Translations under genes and position numbers: made by a program
The notes under the pieces: generated by a model
What the model saw: the letters and a program-made list of their open reading frames with translations, nothing else
Database searches by the model: none
Told to the model about the DNA's origin: nothing
Source of the DNA: Bradyrhizobium sp. ISRA464
GTDB lineage: Bacteria > Pseudomonadota > Alphaproteobacteria > Rhizobiales > Xanthobacteraceae
Direction of reading: 5' to 3'
DNA: 64,000 bases
Assembly (NCBI RefSeq): GCF_029910095.1
Contig: NZ_CP094526.1
Span: forward strand, 1,054,001-1,118,000
Part shown: one piece after another, positions 51,259-59,079 of the stretch
How positions within the stretch are numbered: the first letter of the stretch is position 1
How the letters are laid out: each line of letters opens with the position of its first letter

Positions 51259-52008
51259 TCAGTTCACGTGTGCCGGTCGCAGCGCGGCCTCCATGACAGG
51301 CGGCGCGTCGATATACTTGCTGACGCCGTGCTGGTCGATCACGAAGGTCGGCCGGAAATTCCTGACGTCGGAATCCTTGATCATCGCCATCCGGCGGTTG
51401 TCGAGCGTGAGCCAGCGGCCGTCGAGCCGCGCCGCGACGACGGCATGGTCCTCGCCGCCGAGCAGGTCATGCATGATGACGATCCGCAAATCATCAGGTG
51501 CGACGCCGGCCTCTCGCAGCGCCACGAATTTCGCGATGGCATAGTCCTCGCAGTCGCCGGCGCCCTTGGCGAAGGTGGCGAGGGGCGAGGTCCAGACGTC
51601 GATCTCGCCGTACAGCGCAAGATCGCTGCCCGGGCGGATCGCAAGATTGACGGCGCGATTGATCGTGCCAAGCCGGGCACGGCCGTCACGCGCCCGTCCG
51701 GCATCGATGATCGCCAGGAACCGCAGCGCCTCCGGCGACCCGCAGCCCTCGCGATCGCCGTCGCAGTGCGCAAGCTGAACAAGTTCATCGGCAAGCTGGC
51801 GCTGCACCCCGAGCCATTTTCTGTGCAGCCCGCCGTTGGCAAGCAGGGTGGTCGGCAACCCGAACGGCTCGGTTGACTTCCCGATCAGCTCCGCCGGACC
51901 GGGCGTCAACAGCGACGCGGCGTTCAGCTCGGCAGCCGGCGTGAGCCAGACCAGGCTGCAGACGAGCATGACGCCGCGCAGCGCGCGCGACTGAAGCGAG
52001 TCCGTCAT
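51259..52008 (-). CDS. Transglutaminase-like cysteine peptidase (BTLCP), LapG-type
   Basis: A 249-residue exported protein. An N-terminal hydrophobic segment (RALRGVMLVCSLVWLTPAAE) is a signal peptide or anchor. The catalytic triad of the LapG/DUF920 family is visible: Cys153 in GAGDCEDYAIAK, His188 in GGEDHAVVAA and Asp203 in LTLDNR. The flanking Asp/Glu of GDCED match the Ca2+-binding residues of LapG. LapG is a periplasmic protease that cuts the N-terminal retention module of giant adhesins and so releases biofilm. It is divergent from such a candidate adhesin at 52611, with a 602-bp intergenic gap. ATG at 52008 follows GGGGGTG. Confidence 0.88.
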   Translation of the reverse strand: MTDSLQSRALRGVMLVCSLVWLTPAAELNAASLLTPGPAELIGKSTEPFGLPTTLLANGGLHRKWLGVQRQLADELVQLAHCDGDREGCGSPEALRFLAIIDAGRARDGRARLGTINRAVNLAIRPGSDLALYGEIDVWTSPLATFAKGAGDCEDYAIAKFVALREAGVAPDDLRIVIMHDLLGGEDHAVVAARLDGRWLTLDNRRMAMIKDSDVRNFRPTFVIDQHGVSKYIDAPPVMEAALRPAHVN

Positions 52009-52362
52009 GGGACACCCCCGTCCGGGCATCGGTGGGGTGATCGTACACCCTGGCGTGACCGGATCGTTTCATACGTCAGGGTGGGACACGATGTTTTGAA
52101 TCTGCTTAAAACCCGTCGAATCGGGCCCGGATGCGCAAAAGACGCTGAAGGGCGCCTCGTCGGCGTCCCGAAAACTTTATCGATCTTGTGAACGCGTCCG
52201 GCGAACCTTTCACCGTCTGCCGGCGCCTTATCCTCGCTTTCTGGTTTAATCCGGCAGAGCTGTACGGAATTGTGCGATTTGTAAGCCAATTCACAGCCTT
52301 AGCCGGGAACTTGGGCTCAAATCCGGTCGGGAATTTGAGGGAAAATACAGGCAAGTAGAAAA
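52009..52362. other. 354-bp divergent regulatory region between protease and small ORF
   Basis: No gene is supported. It should hold promoters for the protease and the secreted-protein operon. AT-rich patches occur near 52270-52350. No known c-di-GMP- or cAMP-regulator site could be read with confidence. Confidence 0.4.
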
Positions 52363-52515
52363 ATGGCCGTCAATACCACGAATACGTGGACCAATACCTA
52401 CACAGCTCAAAACTTACCTCAGATTACCCGGAATCAAGCTCAAACCAGACGAGACTCGGCAGTAAGAGCCGCGGTCAACCCGTTCGAAAAGCGCGACGGG
52501 ATCGCCTTTGCGTAA
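52363..52515 (+). CDS. Small hypothetical protein, 50 residues
   Basis: ATG at 52363 to TAA at 52513-52515. It begins MAVNTTNTWTNTYTAQNLPQ and ends FEKRDGIAFA. The Thr/Asn-rich N-terminus and Arg-rich middle look protein-like. The ribosome-binding site is weak. It lies 95 bp upstream of the large FecR/VCBS gene on the same strand, and may be a leader or accessory peptide. It could also be chance. Confidence 0.4.
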   Translation: MAVNTTNTWTNTYTAQNLPQITRNQAQTRRDSAVRAAVNPFEKRDGIAFA

Positions 52516-52610
52516 GCACAGGCCGGTTTCGCCGGGTTCCATCAGATGATATGCAAGCATAGTCGTTTGCATATTCCATAAATATTTCCCCTTACGTGCG
52601 GTGATCCGCG

Positions 52611-55600
52611 GTGAACTTTGTCGATAAATTTGACGGCATCTTGCCGAGCCTGGACGCTCACGCCCGTGGGCAGGTCCATGTCGACAGCGTTTCGGGACAT
52701 GCGCCGCCCGGCGCAATCATCGTTGACGACGCCCAACTGCTGTTCACCGGCGATTTCAAACGTTCCGGCCTCGATCTGGTCCTGTCGAAGGATGATCGCG
52801 AGCTGGTCCTGCACGACTACTTCAGGGGTGAAAAACGCGCGCCCCTGGCCTCGCCCGACGGCGCGCATCTGACCGGCGACATCGTCAACGCGCTCACCGG
52901 TTACACACAATTTGCCCAGGCCGGCGGTGCTGTCGAGCCGCCGAAAGTCATTGGTCACGTCAGCAAGCTTGTCGGCAGCGCTACCGTCGTTCGCAACGGC
53001 GTCGCGGTCGTGCTGAACCAGGGCGACAATGTCTACAAGGGCGACGTGGTCCAGTCCGGCGCCGGCTCGACGCTCGGCATCACCTTTATCGACGGCACCG
53101 TGTTCGGTCTCGGGCCGAACGCGAAAATGGTGCTGAACGAAATGATCTACGACCCGAACGGGTCGAACAATTCATCGCTGCTGAGCCTGGTCCAGGGCAC
53201 GATCTCGTTCGTCGCCGGCGCGACCGCCAAGCATGGCGACATGAAGGTCGATACGCCGGTCGCGACCATGGGCATTCGCGGCACGGCGGTGCTGGTCGAA
53301 ATCGACTTCGACGTGCAGGGAACAGGCGGCGTGCCGCCGGCCAAATTCCAGGTGCTGGTCGAGCCGGACGGCACCACTGGCTCCTACATCCTGTTCGACA
53401 AGACCACGCTCAATCCGATCGCGACCGTCGATCGGGCCGGTACGCAAACCATCGTCAATGGCGCGGGCAGCGTCAGCTTCCTGTCGTCTGCGCAACTGTC
53501 GACCGATGCACAGAAGCTCATCTCCGACGTCTTCGCGCTCAAGTTCACCGACAATACCAATCCAAACACCAAGCTCACATCGAACTTCACCGACTCGATC
53601 GTCCCGACCACGACAGGCTTCAAGCTCGTTGGTGGCGATATCGTCGCGCCAACGATCTTCCTGCTGACCTTTGTCAACGGCCCGGCGCAGAATGTCGCGA
53701 CCAAGGGCCACGACCACGTCGCCGGGGCGCCCGAGACCGTGACGTTCAATGCCGCGTTTACCGAGCAGCCCGGGCTGACCCAAAGCGCGTCCCCTGACAC
53801 GGTTTCGAGCGTGATCAGATGGGTTGACGTCAACCTCGGCGATATACCAAGTGCAACGGCGAGCTTTACGTCGTTCACCTACCAGGACGCCCAGCACAAC
53901 GACGTCACCGCTTCGCTGACGGCCCAGCAACTCGCGGCCATCAAGGCGGTCGAGATCCCGCTGCTCGTTGAGCAAAACCCTCGCAACACCAACATCGGTT
54001 CCGCGGCCTGGACTTACAGCCTGCCGGATAGCGCCTTCGATTTCCTGGGGGCCGGCGAGACGCTGACGCTGACCTACACGGCGCGCGTCGACAACAATTA
54101 CGCGCTTCTCAACGAGACCGCGTTCAAGACCTTCACCATCACGATCACCGGCACCAACGATGTGCCGATCGTGACGTCGTTGGCGCAGGCGGCCACGATC
54201 ACCGAGACGCCGTGGACGACGCATTCCACCGTGCCGGATACGGCGCGTGGGACGGTCACCTTCACCGATCCGGACCTGACCGACACCCATACTGTCACCA
54301 TCACCGGCGTCACCGAGTCAGGCGTTACCACCGGCCTCGCCGACCAGGCGACCGTGCTGAGCTGGTTGTCGCTCGGGGCGCTCACCGATTCGACCGATGG
54401 CGTGACGGGATCGCGCTCCTGGACGTTCTCGGCCGCCGACAAGGATTTCGACTACCTCGCCGCCGGCGAGACGCTCACGCTCACCTACACGGTTCAGATT
54501 GACGACCATCACGGCGGCGTGGTCACGCTGCCCGTCACGATCACGATCGTCGGCACCGACGACAAGCCGGTGATGACGTCGCCGACGCAGGCCGCCGCGA
54601 TGACCGAAGCCCCCGGGGTGACCGGCTCGCTGAGGCCCGATACCGCGTCCGGCACGGTGACCTTCACCGACGTCGACCTCAGCGACACCCACAGCGTGAC
54701 CGTCGCTGATGTGACCGGGTCCGGTGTCACCACCGGTCTTGCCGACCGGGCGACCGTGCTGAGTTGGCTGTCGCTGGGAGCACTCGCCGATTCGACCAAT
54801 GGCGTGACGGGATCGCGCTCGTGGACGTTCTCGGCTGCCGACAAGAATTTCGACTATCTGGCCGTCGGCGAGACGCTGACGCTCGTCTACAGCATCCAGG
54901 TCGATGACCATCACGGCGGAATCGTTACCCAACCCGTCACGATCACCATCACCGGCACCAACGACGTGCCCGTCATCACGTCGGCCCCGCAGACGGCTGC
55001 AATTACCGAGATCCCGGATACGACCGGTTCGTTGAATCCGGATACGGCCTCGGGCGCGGTGACCTTCACCGATGTCGACCTTAGCGATACCCATACCGTG
55101 AGCGTCACCGGCGTGACCGAGGCCGGAGTTACCACCGGCCTTGCCGACCCGGAGACGGTGCTGAGCTGGTTGTCGCTGGGCACGCTGGCGGATTCGATCA
55201 ACGGTGTGACGGGATCGAGCCCTTGGACGTTCTCCGCAGCCGACAAGAATTTCGATTATCTCGCCGCCGGCGAGACGCTGACGCTCACTTACACGGTCCA
55301 GGTCGACGACCATCACGGCGGGGTCGTCACCCAGCCGGTGACGATCACGGTCACCGGCACCAACGACGCGCCCGTCGTCACGTCGGCCCCACAAGCCGCT
55401 GCGATCACCGAGTTGCCGGATACGACCGCTTCGTCCACACCGGACACTGCCAAAGGCACGATCACCTTTACCGATCCCGATCTCAGCGACACGCACAAAG
55501 TGTCCATCGCTGGCGTGACCGAGACCGGGGCGACTTCCGGCCTGCCCGACCAGAGCGTCGTGATGAGCTGGTTGTCCCTGGGCACGCTGGCGGATTCGAC

Positions 55601-56750
55601 CAACGGTGTGACGGGATCGAGCGCGTGGACGTTCTCCGCAGCCGACAGCAATTTCGACAATCTCGCCGCCGGCGAGACGCTGACGCTCGCCTACACGATC
55701 CAGGTCGAGGACGCTCACGGCGTGGTCGATCAGCCGGTCACCATCACCATCACCGGCACCAACGACGCGCCGACGCTCCCCGACCTTGGCACGGTCCTCG
55801 CTCCCGCGACCGACGGCAGCTTCGGCACGATGGTCGGGACGCTCCACGGGTACGATGTCGACGACGGCGAGACCGCAACGCTGACTTATGGTGCCCTCGA
55901 TCAAGCGCATCAGGCAACGAACACGGCGATCAAGGGCCTTTACGGCTCCCTGACGGTGAACGCCAACGGCACCTACACCTATGTTCCCGATGCCGCAATC
56001 AAGGCGCTCCCCGCAGGCGCCTACACCGACACGTTCGGCATCGAGACCACCGATGTTCACGGCGCCATGGGTACGGCCACGCTGACGATCGATATTCTCG
56101 GCGCCGGTGCCGTTCCGGTGCTCAATGTCGACAATCTCACCGTGACGCACGATGTCGAGAGCGGCATGGACACGATTTCAGGCCTGACCGTCGCGGATGC
56201 GGGCGCCAGCGCCAACGAGACCTTCACCCTGACCGCGACGGCCAGCTCGGGCAGCAGCGTCAATCCTGCGTCCGATGCGGGGGATCTGACCCACGTCAAC
56301 GCCACGCTGGCGTCCGGCCTCACCTATCACGAGGGTGGCGAAGCGCCGACGGACATGGTCACGATCTCCGTGGTCGACAGCCATGGCGCGAGCGATACGG
56401 TCAATCTGATCTTCGACGTCCAGCAGAATTCGACCGAACCGGTGACATTGACGGGCACCACCGCCAGGGATGTGCTGTTCGGCATGCCGGGTCATCAGGA
56501 CCAGTTTGTGTTCGCGCCGAACTTCAATCACGACACGATCATGAATTTCACGCCCGGTCAGGACCATATCGACCTGTCTGCGGTGGTATCGACCGCCGAT
56601 GCGACCACCTGGTTCAACCAGCATGTTGCGGTCTCCCCGACGAATTCGGCCGATACGCTGATCACTGTCGATGCCACCGACACCATTACGCTGCACGGGG
56701 TCGCCAAGGCGAGTTTGTCGCAGAACGACTTCATCCTTCATATCGGCTGA
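52611..56750 (+). CDS. Large secreted FecR/VCBS-repeat adhesin-like protein with type I secretion C-terminus
   Basis: A 1379-residue acidic protein. Residues 1-100 resemble a retention-like module seen in alphaproteobacterial RTX adhesins (AQLLFTGDFKRSGLDLVLS, LVLHDYFRGEKRAPLASPDG). Residues about 113-230 form a FecR-type domain (GDNVYKGDVVQSGAGSTLG, DTPVATMGIRGTAV). Four near-identical 134-residue VCBS-type repeats cover about 517-1051, each with VTFTD.DLSDTH, VLSWLSLG, FSAAD.NFDYLA.GETLTL and PVTITITGTND. A fifth divergent cadherin-like unit and a C-terminal M10/T1SS-like region (TGTTARDVLFGMPGHQDQF, PGQDHIDLSAVV) follow. No signal peptide exists, as expected for type I export. The GTG start has a poor ribosome-binding site. 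Confidence 0.8.
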   Translation: MNFVDKFDGILPSLDAHARGQVHVDSVSGHAPPGAIIVDDAQLLFTGDFKRSGLDLVLSKDDRELVLHDYFRGEKRAPLASPDGAHLTGDIVNALTGYTQFAQAGGAVEPPKVIGHVSKLVGSATVVRNGVAVVLNQGDNVYKGDVVQSGAGSTLGITFIDGTVFGLGPNAKMVLNEMIYDPNGSNNSSLLSLVQGTISFVAGATAKHGDMKVDTPVATMGIRGTAVLVEIDFDVQGTGGVPPAKFQVLVEPDGTTGSYILFDKTTLNPIATVDRAGTQTIVNGAGSVSFLSSAQLSTDAQKLISDVFALKFTDNTNPNTKLTSNFTDSIVPTTTGFKLVGGDIVAPTIFLLTFVNGPAQNVATKGHDHVAGAPETVTFNAAFTEQPGLTQSASPDTVSSVIRWVDVNLGDIPSATASFTSFTYQDAQHNDVTASLTAQQLAAIKAVEIPLLVEQNPRNTNIGSAAWTYSLPDSAFDFLGAGETLTLTYTARVDNNYALLNETAFKTFTITITGTNDVPIVTSLAQAATITETPWTTHSTVPDTARGTVTFTDPDLTDTHTVTITGVTESGVTTGLADQATVLSWLSLGALTDSTDGVTGSRSWTFSAADKDFDYLAAGETLTLTYTVQIDDHHGGVVTLPVTITIVGTDDKPVMTSPTQAAAMTEAPGVTGSLRPDTASGTVTFTDVDLSDTHSVTVADVTGSGVTTGLADRATVLSWLSLGALADSTNGVTGSRSWTFSAADKNFDYLAVGETLTLVYSIQVDDHHGGIVTQPVTITITGTNDVPVITSAPQTAAITEIPDTTGSLNPDTASGAVTFTDVDLSDTHTVSVTGVTEAGVTTGLADPETVLSWLSLGTLADSINGVTGSSPWTFSAADKNFDYLAAGETLTLTYTVQVDDHHGGVVTQPVTITVTGTNDAPVVTSAPQAAAITELPDTTASSTPDTAKGTITFTDPDLSDTHKVSIAGVTETGATSGLPDQSVVMSWLSLGTLADSTNGVTGSSAWTFSAADSNFDNLAAGETLTLAYTIQVEDAHGVVDQPVTITITGTNDAPTLPDLGTVLAPATDGSFGTMVGTLHGYDVDDGETATLTYGALDQAHQATNTAIKGLYGSLTVNANGTYTYVPDAAIKALPAGAYTDTFGIETTDVHGAMGTATLTIDILGAGAVPVLNVDNLTVTHDVESGMDTISGLTVADAGASANETFTLTATASSGSSVNPASDAGDLTHVNATLASGLTYHEGGEAPTDMVTISVVDSHGASDTVNLIFDVQQNSTEPVTLTGTTARDVLFGMPGHQDQFVFAPNFNHDTIMNFTPGQDHIDLSAVVSTADATTWFNQHVAVSPTNSADTLITVDATDTITLHGVAKASLSQNDFILHIG
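54159..55763 (+). repeat. Four tandem ~402-bp VCBS coding repeats
   Basis: Repeats begin at about 54159, 54561, 54963 and 55365, each 402 bp (the last 399). They share long stretches such as ACGTTCTC.GC.GCCGACAA and GGCGAGACGCTGACGCTC. The high similarity suggests recent duplication or gene conversion and makes the copy number likely to vary. Confidence 0.9.
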
Positions 56751-56850
56751 CCGGCGTGCGGTGCCTGGGGCGGCGTCGATCGTAAGCTGTCCCGCGTTGC
56801 GTGCGTCGTGCCCGATTGGAACAAGCTCCCGTGCATGATATCCAGATCGC

Positions 56851-59079
56851 ATGAAACGGCTGAGGGCGATACAGAGATCGTTCGCGCGACGCTTCGGCTA
56901 TGCGCGGCTGGCGTGCGTGGTGCTGCTGATCGGCATCGCCGCGCTGCGCGTCGTGGATCCGGCGCCGGTCGAGGAATTGAGGGTCCGGGTCTTCGACTCG
57001 TTCCAGCGCATCGATCCCCGCAAGAAGACGATCCGTCCGGTCACGATTGTCGATATAGACGAGAAAAGCCTGGCCAAGCTCGGCCAGTGGCCGTGGCCGC
57101 GAACGACCATCGCCGACATCATTATCAATCTGACCAGTCTCGGCGCAGCCGCGATCGGTTTCGACGTGGTTTTCTCGGAGCCGGACCGTCTCAACCCCGA
57201 TAGGGTCGCGGGTCAGATGCGGTTCATCGACGAGGTCACCAGGAAGCGACTGCGGGAGTTGCCGACCAACGACCAAATCCTGTCCGATGCAATCCGCCGG
57301 TCGCGCGTGGTGCTGGGCGAGACGGGGCTCGCGCAAGTGAGGTCGGAGCTCGACGAAACCCTGCCGACGACGGCGTTTGCGACGCTCGGCGAGGAAGCCG
57401 AGCCTTTTCTGTACCAGTTTGCCGGCTTGCTGCGAAACGTGCCTGTGCTGGAGCGCGCCGCCGCCGGGCGCGGCCTGTTCACGATCAAGACCGAGCGGGA
57501 CGGCATCGTCCGGCGGGTGCCGATGGTGATGCGGGCGCAGGGCATGCTGATGCCATCGCTCAGTCTCGAAATATTGCGGATCGTCTCCGGCACGCCGACG
57601 GTGCTGATCAAGACCGACAAGGCCGGCGTCAAGAGCATCAATCTGCGAGGGCTTGAGATCCCCACTGATCGCAACGGACAGCTCTGGGTGCATTTCGCGC
57701 GCCAGGATCCGTCGATCTATGTGTCCGCATCCGATGTTCTCGACGGAAATGTGCCGGTCAACAAGATATCCGGCAAGCTGGTGCTGATCGGTACCTCGGC
57801 GGTCGGATTGAACGACATCAAGACGACGCCGGCGTCGGCGGCGATGCCGGGCGTGGAGATTCATGCCCAGCTCCTGGAAAGTGCGCTGACCGGGGCCGTG
57901 GTGCAGCAGCCGAGCTACGGCATTGCGCTCGAGTTCTTTGGTGCGATGATCGTAGGTCTTCTGGTCATCGCTTTTGCGCCGAAATTCGGACCGGTGACGC
58001 TGGTCGCGGTCGGCGGGTTGTTCGCGTCGGTGCTGGTGGGCACATCCTGGTATTTCTACAGCCAGCACCGGCTGCTGATCGATTTCACCTATCCGCTGAT
58101 GTCGACCACGGCGATCTACCTCACGCTGATCTTCTCCGCCTTCGTGCGCGAGCAGCAGCAGCGCCGGCAGATCCGGACGCAATTCGTGCAGTATATGTCG
58201 CCCGCGCTGGTCGAGCAGCTCGCGCAGTCGCCGGAGAAGCTTGTGCTCGGTGGCGAGGAGCGCGAGATGACCATCATGTTCTCGGACATGCGCGGCTTCA
58301 CCTCGATCTCGGAGACCTACAAGCGCGATCCGCAGGGCCTCACGGCGCTGATGAATCGCTTTCTCACGCCGCTCTCGAATGCGATTCTCGTCCGCAAAGG
58401 CACGATCGACAAATATATGGGCGACGCCATCATGGCGTTCTGGAACGCGCCACTCGACGACAAGGACCACCAGATCAACGCCTGCGAAGCCGCGCTCGAC
58501 ATGCTGGAGAGGGTCGACGAGCTGAACCAGGCGCGCGAGCAGGAGGCGCGCGAAGGCGGTCACATCTACGTGCCTCTCAACATCGGCGTCGGCCTCAACA
58601 CCGGTACCTGCGTGGTCGGCAACATGGGCTCCGACGTGCGGTTCGACTATTCGGTGTTCGGCGACAGCGTCAATCTGGCGTCGCGCCTGGAGGGGCAATC
58701 CAAGGAGTACGGCTTCCCGATCATCGTGGGATCGCAGACCGCGCTAGCAGTGAAGGACAAATTCGCGATCCTCGAGCTCGACTTCATCATGGTGAAGGGC
58801 AAGAAGGAGCCCGAGGTGATCTATGCGATCGCCGGCCGCGAGGAGGTGGCGAATTCCGGCCGTTTCCAGCGGCTGCGCAACCTGACCATCGAAATGCTTG
58901 CCTGCTACCGCGGCCGCGACTGGGACGGCGCGCTCGCCGCGATCGAGCGCGGGCGCAAGACCGACGAGGCGCAGGCGCTGCAACAGCTCTACAGCCTCTA
59001 CGAGGCGCGCATCCGCGCCTTCCAGAAGGCCCCGCCGCCTGACGACTGGAATGGCGCATTCGCGCTGCTGACGAAGTGA
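56851..59079 (+). CDS. CHASE2-domain adenylate/guanylate cyclase
   Basis: A 742-residue membrane signalling protein. A first hydrophobic helix near residue 25 is followed by an extracytoplasmic CHASE2 sensor domain (about 40-330; RKKTIRPVTIVDIDEKSLAK, FARQDPSIYVSASDVLDG). Three helices follow at about 345-420. The class III cyclase domain (about 455-660) shows MFSDMRGFTSIS with a metal Asp, GTIDKYMGDAIMAFW and DYSVFGDSVNLASRLEGQ. These hold the metal, substrate and transition-state residues of an active cyclase. It makes cAMP (or cGMP) in the cytoplasm. It follows the adhesin-like gene by 100 bp on the same strand, but any coupling is inferred. Confidence 0.9.
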   Translation: MKRLRAIQRSFARRFGYARLACVVLLIGIAALRVVDPAPVEELRVRVFDSFQRIDPRKKTIRPVTIVDIDEKSLAKLGQWPWPRTTIADIIINLTSLGAAAIGFDVVFSEPDRLNPDRVAGQMRFIDEVTRKRLRELPTNDQILSDAIRRSRVVLGETGLAQVRSELDETLPTTAFATLGEEAEPFLYQFAGLLRNVPVLERAAAGRGLFTIKTERDGIVRRVPMVMRAQGMLMPSLSLEILRIVSGTPTVLIKTDKAGVKSINLRGLEIPTDRNGQLWVHFARQDPSIYVSASDVLDGNVPVNKISGKLVLIGTSAVGLNDIKTTPASAAMPGVEIHAQLLESALTGAVVQQPSYGIALEFFGAMIVGLLVIAFAPKFGPVTLVAVGGLFASVLVGTSWYFYSQHRLLIDFTYPLMSTTAIYLTLIFSAFVREQQQRRQIRTQFVQYMSPALVEQLAQSPEKLVLGGEEREMTIMFSDMRGFTSISETYKRDPQGLTALMNRFLTPLSNAILVRKGTIDKYMGDAIMAFWNAPLDDKDHQINACEAALDMLERVDELNQAREQEAREGGHIYVPLNIGVGLNTGTCVVGNMGSDVRFDYSVFGDSVNLASRLEGQSKEYGFPIIVGSQTALAVKDKFAILELDFIMVKGKKEPEVIYAIAGREEVANSGRFQRLRNLTIEMLACYRGRDWDGALAAIERGRKTDEAQALQQLYSLYEARIRAFQKAPPPDDWNGAFALLTK

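Follow-up and report, generated by a model that had tools for sequence, protein, structure and literature searches.

The genome of Bradyrhizobium sp. ISRA464 carries a conserved gene set consisting of a repeat-rich adhesin, a LapG-like cysteine protease, a type I exporter and a CHASE2-class III cyclase, with no LapD found. All but the exporter lie within a 64,000-nucleotide stretch (the window; positions 1054001-1118000 of the 8.46 Mb single-contig genome). We propose that the FecR domain of the retained adhesin signals to the CHASE2 adenylyl cyclase and that the protease serves as a reset, a reading to which we assign a probability of roughly 0.45. It draws on the domains of these proteins, their gene order, an orthologous exporter, the homology between the LapA retention module and FecR, the bias of FecR genes towards CHASE2 genes, a CRP-like site and the outcome of the LapD search. 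In such a system the cell may sense attachment directly through cyclic AMP (cAMP), without the usual receptor for cyclic di-GMP (c-di-GMP).

Adhesin, protease, exporter and cyclase form a conserved gene set

A first-pass annotation had described the protease, a 1379-residue FecR/VCBS protein and the CHASE2 cyclase, and all three were found where it had placed them (Table 1). The nearest named relatives of the window cyclase belong to Bradyrhizobium. Eighty related loci were fetched from a genome-collection scan with this cyclase as the query, an approach blind to adhesins that lack a cyclase. Of the 80, 58 show the adhesin N-terminus, which is missing from the available sequence of the other 22, several of them short contigs; L055 holds a protease fragment only. 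At all 58 loci with a visible adhesin N-terminus the cyclase lies downstream of the adhesin on the same strand, and in 49 of 49 testable relatives (those with more than 1.5 kb of upstream sequence) the protease is divergent from the adhesin. The arrangement for which the first-pass annotation had proposed a neighbourhood survey is thus conserved.

The type I secretion genes for which it had proposed a search are also present. Specifically, in 13 loci, among them Tardiphaga, Afipia and Rhodopseudomonas, an exporter made up of an ATP-binding cassette (ABC) protein and HlyD stops 14-345 bp short of the cyclase; 7 of these 13 operon-type loci also show the adhesin N-terminus upstream of the exporter, and 2 more a C-terminal piece. 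Five other loci carry an ABC and HlyD pair 1.5-4.4 kb downstream of the cyclase. The window genome has its orthologous exporter outside the window at 1122884-1125954, 9.8 kb after the cyclase, with profile scores of 726 bits for PrtD and 395 bits for HlyD. It is 65-74% and 65-83% identical to four operon-type copies, the genome's other exporters reaching at most 44.3%. Between it and the cyclase lies a set of genes resembling a peptide transporter (SBP_bac_5 for one of them by Pfam, the others by eye). The compact order, in which the exporter directly precedes the cyclase, may be the older arrangement.

The protease scores 60.9 bits against Peptidase_C93 (cut-off 27), carries the Cys-His-Asp triad and the GDCED stretch of that family, and aligns through this stretch with structures 4u65 and 4fgo, whose entries are titled putative cystine protease and periplasmic protein and which we take to be LapG structures. 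In LapG, acidic residues near GDCED bind calcium. With NF045674, the LapG equivalog model, the protease reaches 71 bits, far under the cut-off of 320, and we therefore call it LapG-like rather than LapG. The catalytic residues given earlier as Cys153, His188 and Asp203 are the Cys160, His195 and Asp210 of Table 1, the earlier count having started at an ATG seven codons after the listed start of the open reading frame (ORF). A genome-wide search for LapD, made with the LapD_MoxY_N model only, gave a single sub-threshold match, in a histidine kinase that adjoins an S-formylglutathione-hydrolase-like gene (both names read from the sequence, with no family scan), and no LapD was found, in agreement with the earlier description of the locus as lacking it.

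There are three C93 proteins in the window genome, two besides the window protease. One of these two, of 352 aa and with a LapG model score of 70 bits, belongs to an LssB-type type I secretion system (T1SS) cluster at 2.68-2.70 Mb; there, within 2680000-2702024, this LapG-like protease, LssB-type ABC and HlyD genes and, by eye, TolC-like genes stand beside a 3468-aa giant protein. In the 80 CHASE2 stretches from other Alphaproteobacteria described below, several of which are cut by contig ends, a C93 protease is in view in 2; the pairing with a protease is therefore mostly a feature of the relatives in Bradyrhizobium, Tardiphaga, Afipia and Rhodopseudomonas. At two T1SS-CHASE2 loci, L122 (1143-3374) and L133 (13651-15846), a PAS/HD_5 (HD-GYP-like) membrane protein is divergent from the C93 protease; the L122 copy alone has a weak dCache match.

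Table 1. Features of the adhesin-cyclase locus, in window coordinates
Feature	Position	Strand	Basis and remarks
LapG-like cysteine protease (Peptidase_C93), 256 aa	51259..52029	-	profile match, GDCED motif, Cys160/His195/Asp210; hydrophobic leader near N-terminus by eye
CRP-like site TGTAAGCCAATTCACA, between protease and adhesin	52280..52295	+	motif search; one mismatch to TGTGA-N6-TCACA
FecR/VCBS surface protein with T1SS-type C-terminus, 1379 aa	52611..56750	+	profile matches; adhesin by analogy
N-terminal prefix domain, residues about 30-97, beta-rich	52698..52901	+	weak BapA_N match in relative L131
Ala/Gly/Pro linker before FecR, residues 98-112 (low confidence)	52902..52946	+	weak candidate cleavage region
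FecR/retention-like module, residues 113-306	52947..53528	+	resembles PupR signalling domain (142-306) and 5ix9 anchor domain (111-183)
Four VCBS-type direct repeats, 402 nt (134 aa) each	54130..55739	+	74-82% alike
Type I secretion C-terminal target region, residues 1308-1375	56532..56735	+	TIGR03661 21 bits, cut-off 17.6
CHASE2-class III adenylyl-type cyclase, 742 aa	56851..59079	+	profile matches; CHASE2 27-370, catalytic domain 471-659

The putative adhesin anchor is a FecR/PupR-type domain related to the LapA retention module

The 1379-residue protein matches FecR at 35.6 bits (residues 145-230) and VCBS repeats at 154 bits, and its repeats and C-terminal target model are those of a type I secretion substrate. 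The FecR module agrees with the FecR/PupR signalling domain both by profile and in the fold of its predicted model. Against the LapA retention model NF033682 the protein reaches 21 bits, under the cut-off of 50, yet the canonical LapA retention module is homologous to half of the FecR domain, namely its first half. The layout drawn for the adhesin in the first-pass annotation therefore stands for the FecR domain, the VCBS repeats and the T1SS C-terminus, while its retention-like module is homologous in the first half and falls under the LapA model cut-off. A FecR domain within an adhesin had been called unusual; this view has to be dropped, since the retention module and half of a FecR domain are themselves homologous, and giant proteins with FecR were met frequently. 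One of these lies in the window genome at about 3074115-3081006, where a 218-aa FecR protein (- strand) and a 1972-aa FecR giant (+ strand) are divergent and no exporter was recognised by eye in 20 kb.

The locus resembles the Lap system in its repeat adhesin with a T1SS-type C-terminus, in an N-terminal module homologous to the LapA retention module and in a C93 protease with the GDCED motif. It differs in that no LapD was found, the exporter is of PrtD type, a CHASE2 cyclase adjoins the adhesin and the protease stays under the LapG equivalog cut-off. Additionally, a full FecR domain takes the place of the helix-like stretch and ATAAG-type motif: a motif search of the first 345 residues of the window adhesin gave neither an [ATP]AAG-type LapG motif nor a di-alanine, which is present in 45 of 57 linkers read. 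The solved fold of the 5ix9 cell-surface anchoring domain, presumably that of the MpIBP ice-binding adhesin, matches the first half of the window module only, the second half being FecR-type. Unlike the FecR/PupR domains of cell-surface signalling, the window copy sits in an adhesin and not in an inner-membrane anti-sigma factor; no extracytoplasmic function (ECF) sigma factor or TonB receptor partner was noticed in the window ORF list, at which no family search for these was aimed.

FecR genes recur beside CHASE2 genes

CHASE2 is present in 116 of 240 sampled genomes of Alphaproteobacteria. Eighty CHASE2-centred stretches from 71 alphaproteobacterial genomes were hand-picked, not at random, among the matches listed, with contig interiors preferred. 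A FecR gene is present in 41, a T1SS ABC and HlyD pair in 11 (a plain count without formal control), both in 4, and C93 in 2, both with T1SS. In L108 and L131, which belong to other families, the order is FecR adhesin, ABC, HlyD and CHASE2 cyclase on one strand; these adhesins combine FecR with RTX, cadherin or Ig-like repeats, and the BapA_N prefix match in L131 is under the cut-off.

The proximity of FecR (Pfam model) to CHASE2 was compared with a Poisson expectation from the FecR density of each genome, in hand-chosen sets of 40 alphaproteobacterial genomes (taken from the 71 above, plus the window genome) and 25 of other classes. Among the 62 CHASE2 matches listed for the former (none for G340), FecR lies within 3, 6 and 10 kb in 29, 36 and 39, as against 0.36, 0.73 and 1.2 expected. 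In the other classes it lies within 6 kb of 18 of the 38 CHASE2 matches listed, with 0.32 expected. Six plasmid loci were chosen from 265 records, and in 6/6 the FecR gene adjoins the CHASE2 cyclase or is separated from it by one small gene. In L217 and L218, on Ensifer and Shinella plasmids, FecR and the CHASE2 cyclase are embedded in NHLP-type clusters for peptide export that also encode a cyclic-nucleotide-binding protein; here too a FecR-CHASE2 pair adjoins an ABC/HlyD-like exporter.

The FecR proteins beside CHASE2 differ in build, comprising T1SS adhesins, proteins with tetratricopeptide repeats (TPRs) and a barrel, and LysM proteins. On pSymB of Sinorhizobium meliloti, a gene with a one-base overlap with cyaK codes for a protein of 1190 aa, in which FecR (58 bits) and TPRs were recognised along with weak matches to an outer-membrane barrel at the C-terminus. 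This gene is probably nsrA: according to the accessible parts of later papers, NsrA is an outer-membrane protein with a barrel at residues 600-1200, placed upstream of the CHASE2 cyclases and needed for signal perception through CyaK and CyaD1/D2 (PMC7529298, PMC13001267, PMC10463352). As in the window, a FecR protein gene stands directly upstream of a CHASE2 cyclase; unlike the window adhesin, the S. meliloti protein has TPRs and a probable C-terminal beta-barrel and no T1SS repeats, and neither a C93 protease nor a type I exporter is among the features listed for its region, for which the gene table is incomplete. FecR also stands beside a CHASE2 histidine kinase in the Burkholderia BiofilmReg operon (PMC5192318) and beside CHASE2 cyclases in a Campylobacterota cluster (PMC9239204), where the excerpts available describe no T1SS adhesin.

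An excerpt from 2016 describes what CHASE2 domains sense as unknown (PMC5192318). The recurrent FecR partner, here the anchor of an exported adhesin, is a testable candidate for this input. In the openly licensed literature, to which our claim of novelty is confined, no paper was found on CHASE2 with adenylate cyclase and type I secretion, on the retention module with FecR, or on FecR with type I secretion and an adhesin.

The cyclase is of adenylyl type and a CRP-like site precedes the adhesin

The window cyclase, the only CHASE2 protein found in its genome, scores 203 bits for CHASE2 and 79 bits for the cyclase domain. Its substrate-selecting positions are, by motif, K521 and S601, and we assume that Lys and Ser at these positions select ATP. 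Of 164 cyclase domains the pattern matched 158, and 155 of these have Lys at the selecting position; most of the PDB entries that best match the window cyclase carry an adenylate cyclase annotation. Given these adenylyl-type residues, the nucleotide made is likely to be cAMP. In CHASE2 cyclases of different families a PPxxxWxGVFxAxxK-type tail at the C-terminus (residues 728-742 in the window cyclase) recurs, by eye.

The window has a single match to TGTNA-N6-TNACA, as against 0.17 expected, and this match is the CRP-like site of the protease/adhesin intergenic region. Of 53 homologous intergenic regions, the window included, 36 contain a site that departs from TGTGA-N6-TCACA by no more than one base, compared with 18 of 1040 control stretches; these controls come from the loci themselves, and overlap with the site is possible. 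In 33 of those 36 regions the spacing is constant to within 7 bases, and in the window it amounts to some 330 bp upstream of the adhesin start. The site is missing from 17 of the 53 and is therefore a trait of part of Bradyrhizobium, in which the protease/adhesin promoter region may be under feedback from a CRP-family regulator.

A proposed path from adhesin to cyclase, and its alternatives

We propose that the locus encodes a signalling system that runs from the cell surface to cAMP and has a type I-secreted adhesin at its base. Secretion by the PrtD-type exporter would start with the adhesin C-terminus, and the N-terminal prefix and FecR/retention-like module would fold in the periplasm and plug the adhesin in the export channel, much as the LapA retention module does. 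Because the anchor is a full FecR/PupR-type signalling domain, it could show the status of the adhesin (present, under load or cleaved) to the CHASE2 domain that the inner-membrane cyclase exposes in the periplasm, and cAMP would change in response. The LapG-like protease would trim or release the adhesin and so reset the signal. From adhesin to cyclase is the most likely direction.

Some observations weigh against parts of this account. Another S. meliloti FecR gene, smc02177, is dispensable for perception, according to the part of the source available (PMC5498481). The exporters of L108 and L131 are 31-32% identical to the window-genome exporter and closer to another exporter of that genome, which argues against the compact order as the older one. 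The CRP-like site is absent from all 7 operon-type loci tested, these being among the 17 regions without it, which counts against the feedback step. These last two results bear on how the gene order arose and on the feedback, and leave the core claim untouched.

The same evidence bears on a purely transcriptional link, in which cAMP from this or other cyclases would act through a CRP-type regulator on the protease/adhesin promoters and FecR would make no contact with CHASE2. The site in 36/53 intergenic regions favours it, as does smc02177, which the same excerpt describes as a Clr target (PMC5498481). We nevertheless regard it as rather unlikely: it does not account for the operon-type loci without the site, for the recurrence of differently built FecR proteins beside CHASE2, or for FecR at 5 of the 8 loci whose CHASE2 gene has no cyclase domain by profile.

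The first-pass annotation had linked adhesin release to cAMP or cGMP signalling, such that cyclase output would control the protease or the release in place of c-di-GMP and LapD. Part of this holds: no LapD was found, protease, adhesin and cyclase are conserved together, and the catalytic residues are of adenylyl type. Moreover, an available portion of a Shewanella study reports that cAMP feeds into a Lap system: the LapG homologue is modulated by cAMP-CRP in complex with BpfD, the LapD homologue (PMC8938473). That known route, however, requires LapD. In these families the catalytic domain is expected to be cytoplasmic and the protease periplasmic, and no receptor linking the two was found. 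Additionally, C93 is in view in only 2 of 11 T1SS-CHASE2 stretches outside the relatives of the window, some cut by contig ends, and the canonical LapG-type motif is missing. Control of release by the cyclase is thus unsupported and in our judgement unlikely, the comparative evidence favouring the reverse, from FecR protein to CHASE2 cyclase. An ordinary Lap-type variant, with the protease answering to an unrecognised c-di-GMP receptor elsewhere and the cyclase as bystander, is very improbable: the LapD search with a single model and the HD-GYP-like protein beside C93 in L122 and L133, a possible c-di-GMP link, speak for it, but the cyclase beside the adhesin in all 58 cyclase-fetched relatives, the FecR-T1SS-CHASE2 sets in other families and the lack of a LapD domain match above threshold speak against it.

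If adhesin status does reach the cyclase, adhesin retention, best known through c-di-GMP and LapD, would be joined to cAMP, and the LapA retention module would be explained as a relative of the FecR/PupR signalling fold. More broadly, and only tentatively, CHASE2, an orphan sensor domain, could be a receptor for periplasmic FecR-type domains of surface proteins, adhesins of this kind could be contact sensors that signal to cAMP, and the LapA retention module could be a cut-down FecR signalling domain, giving retention and surface signalling one origin.

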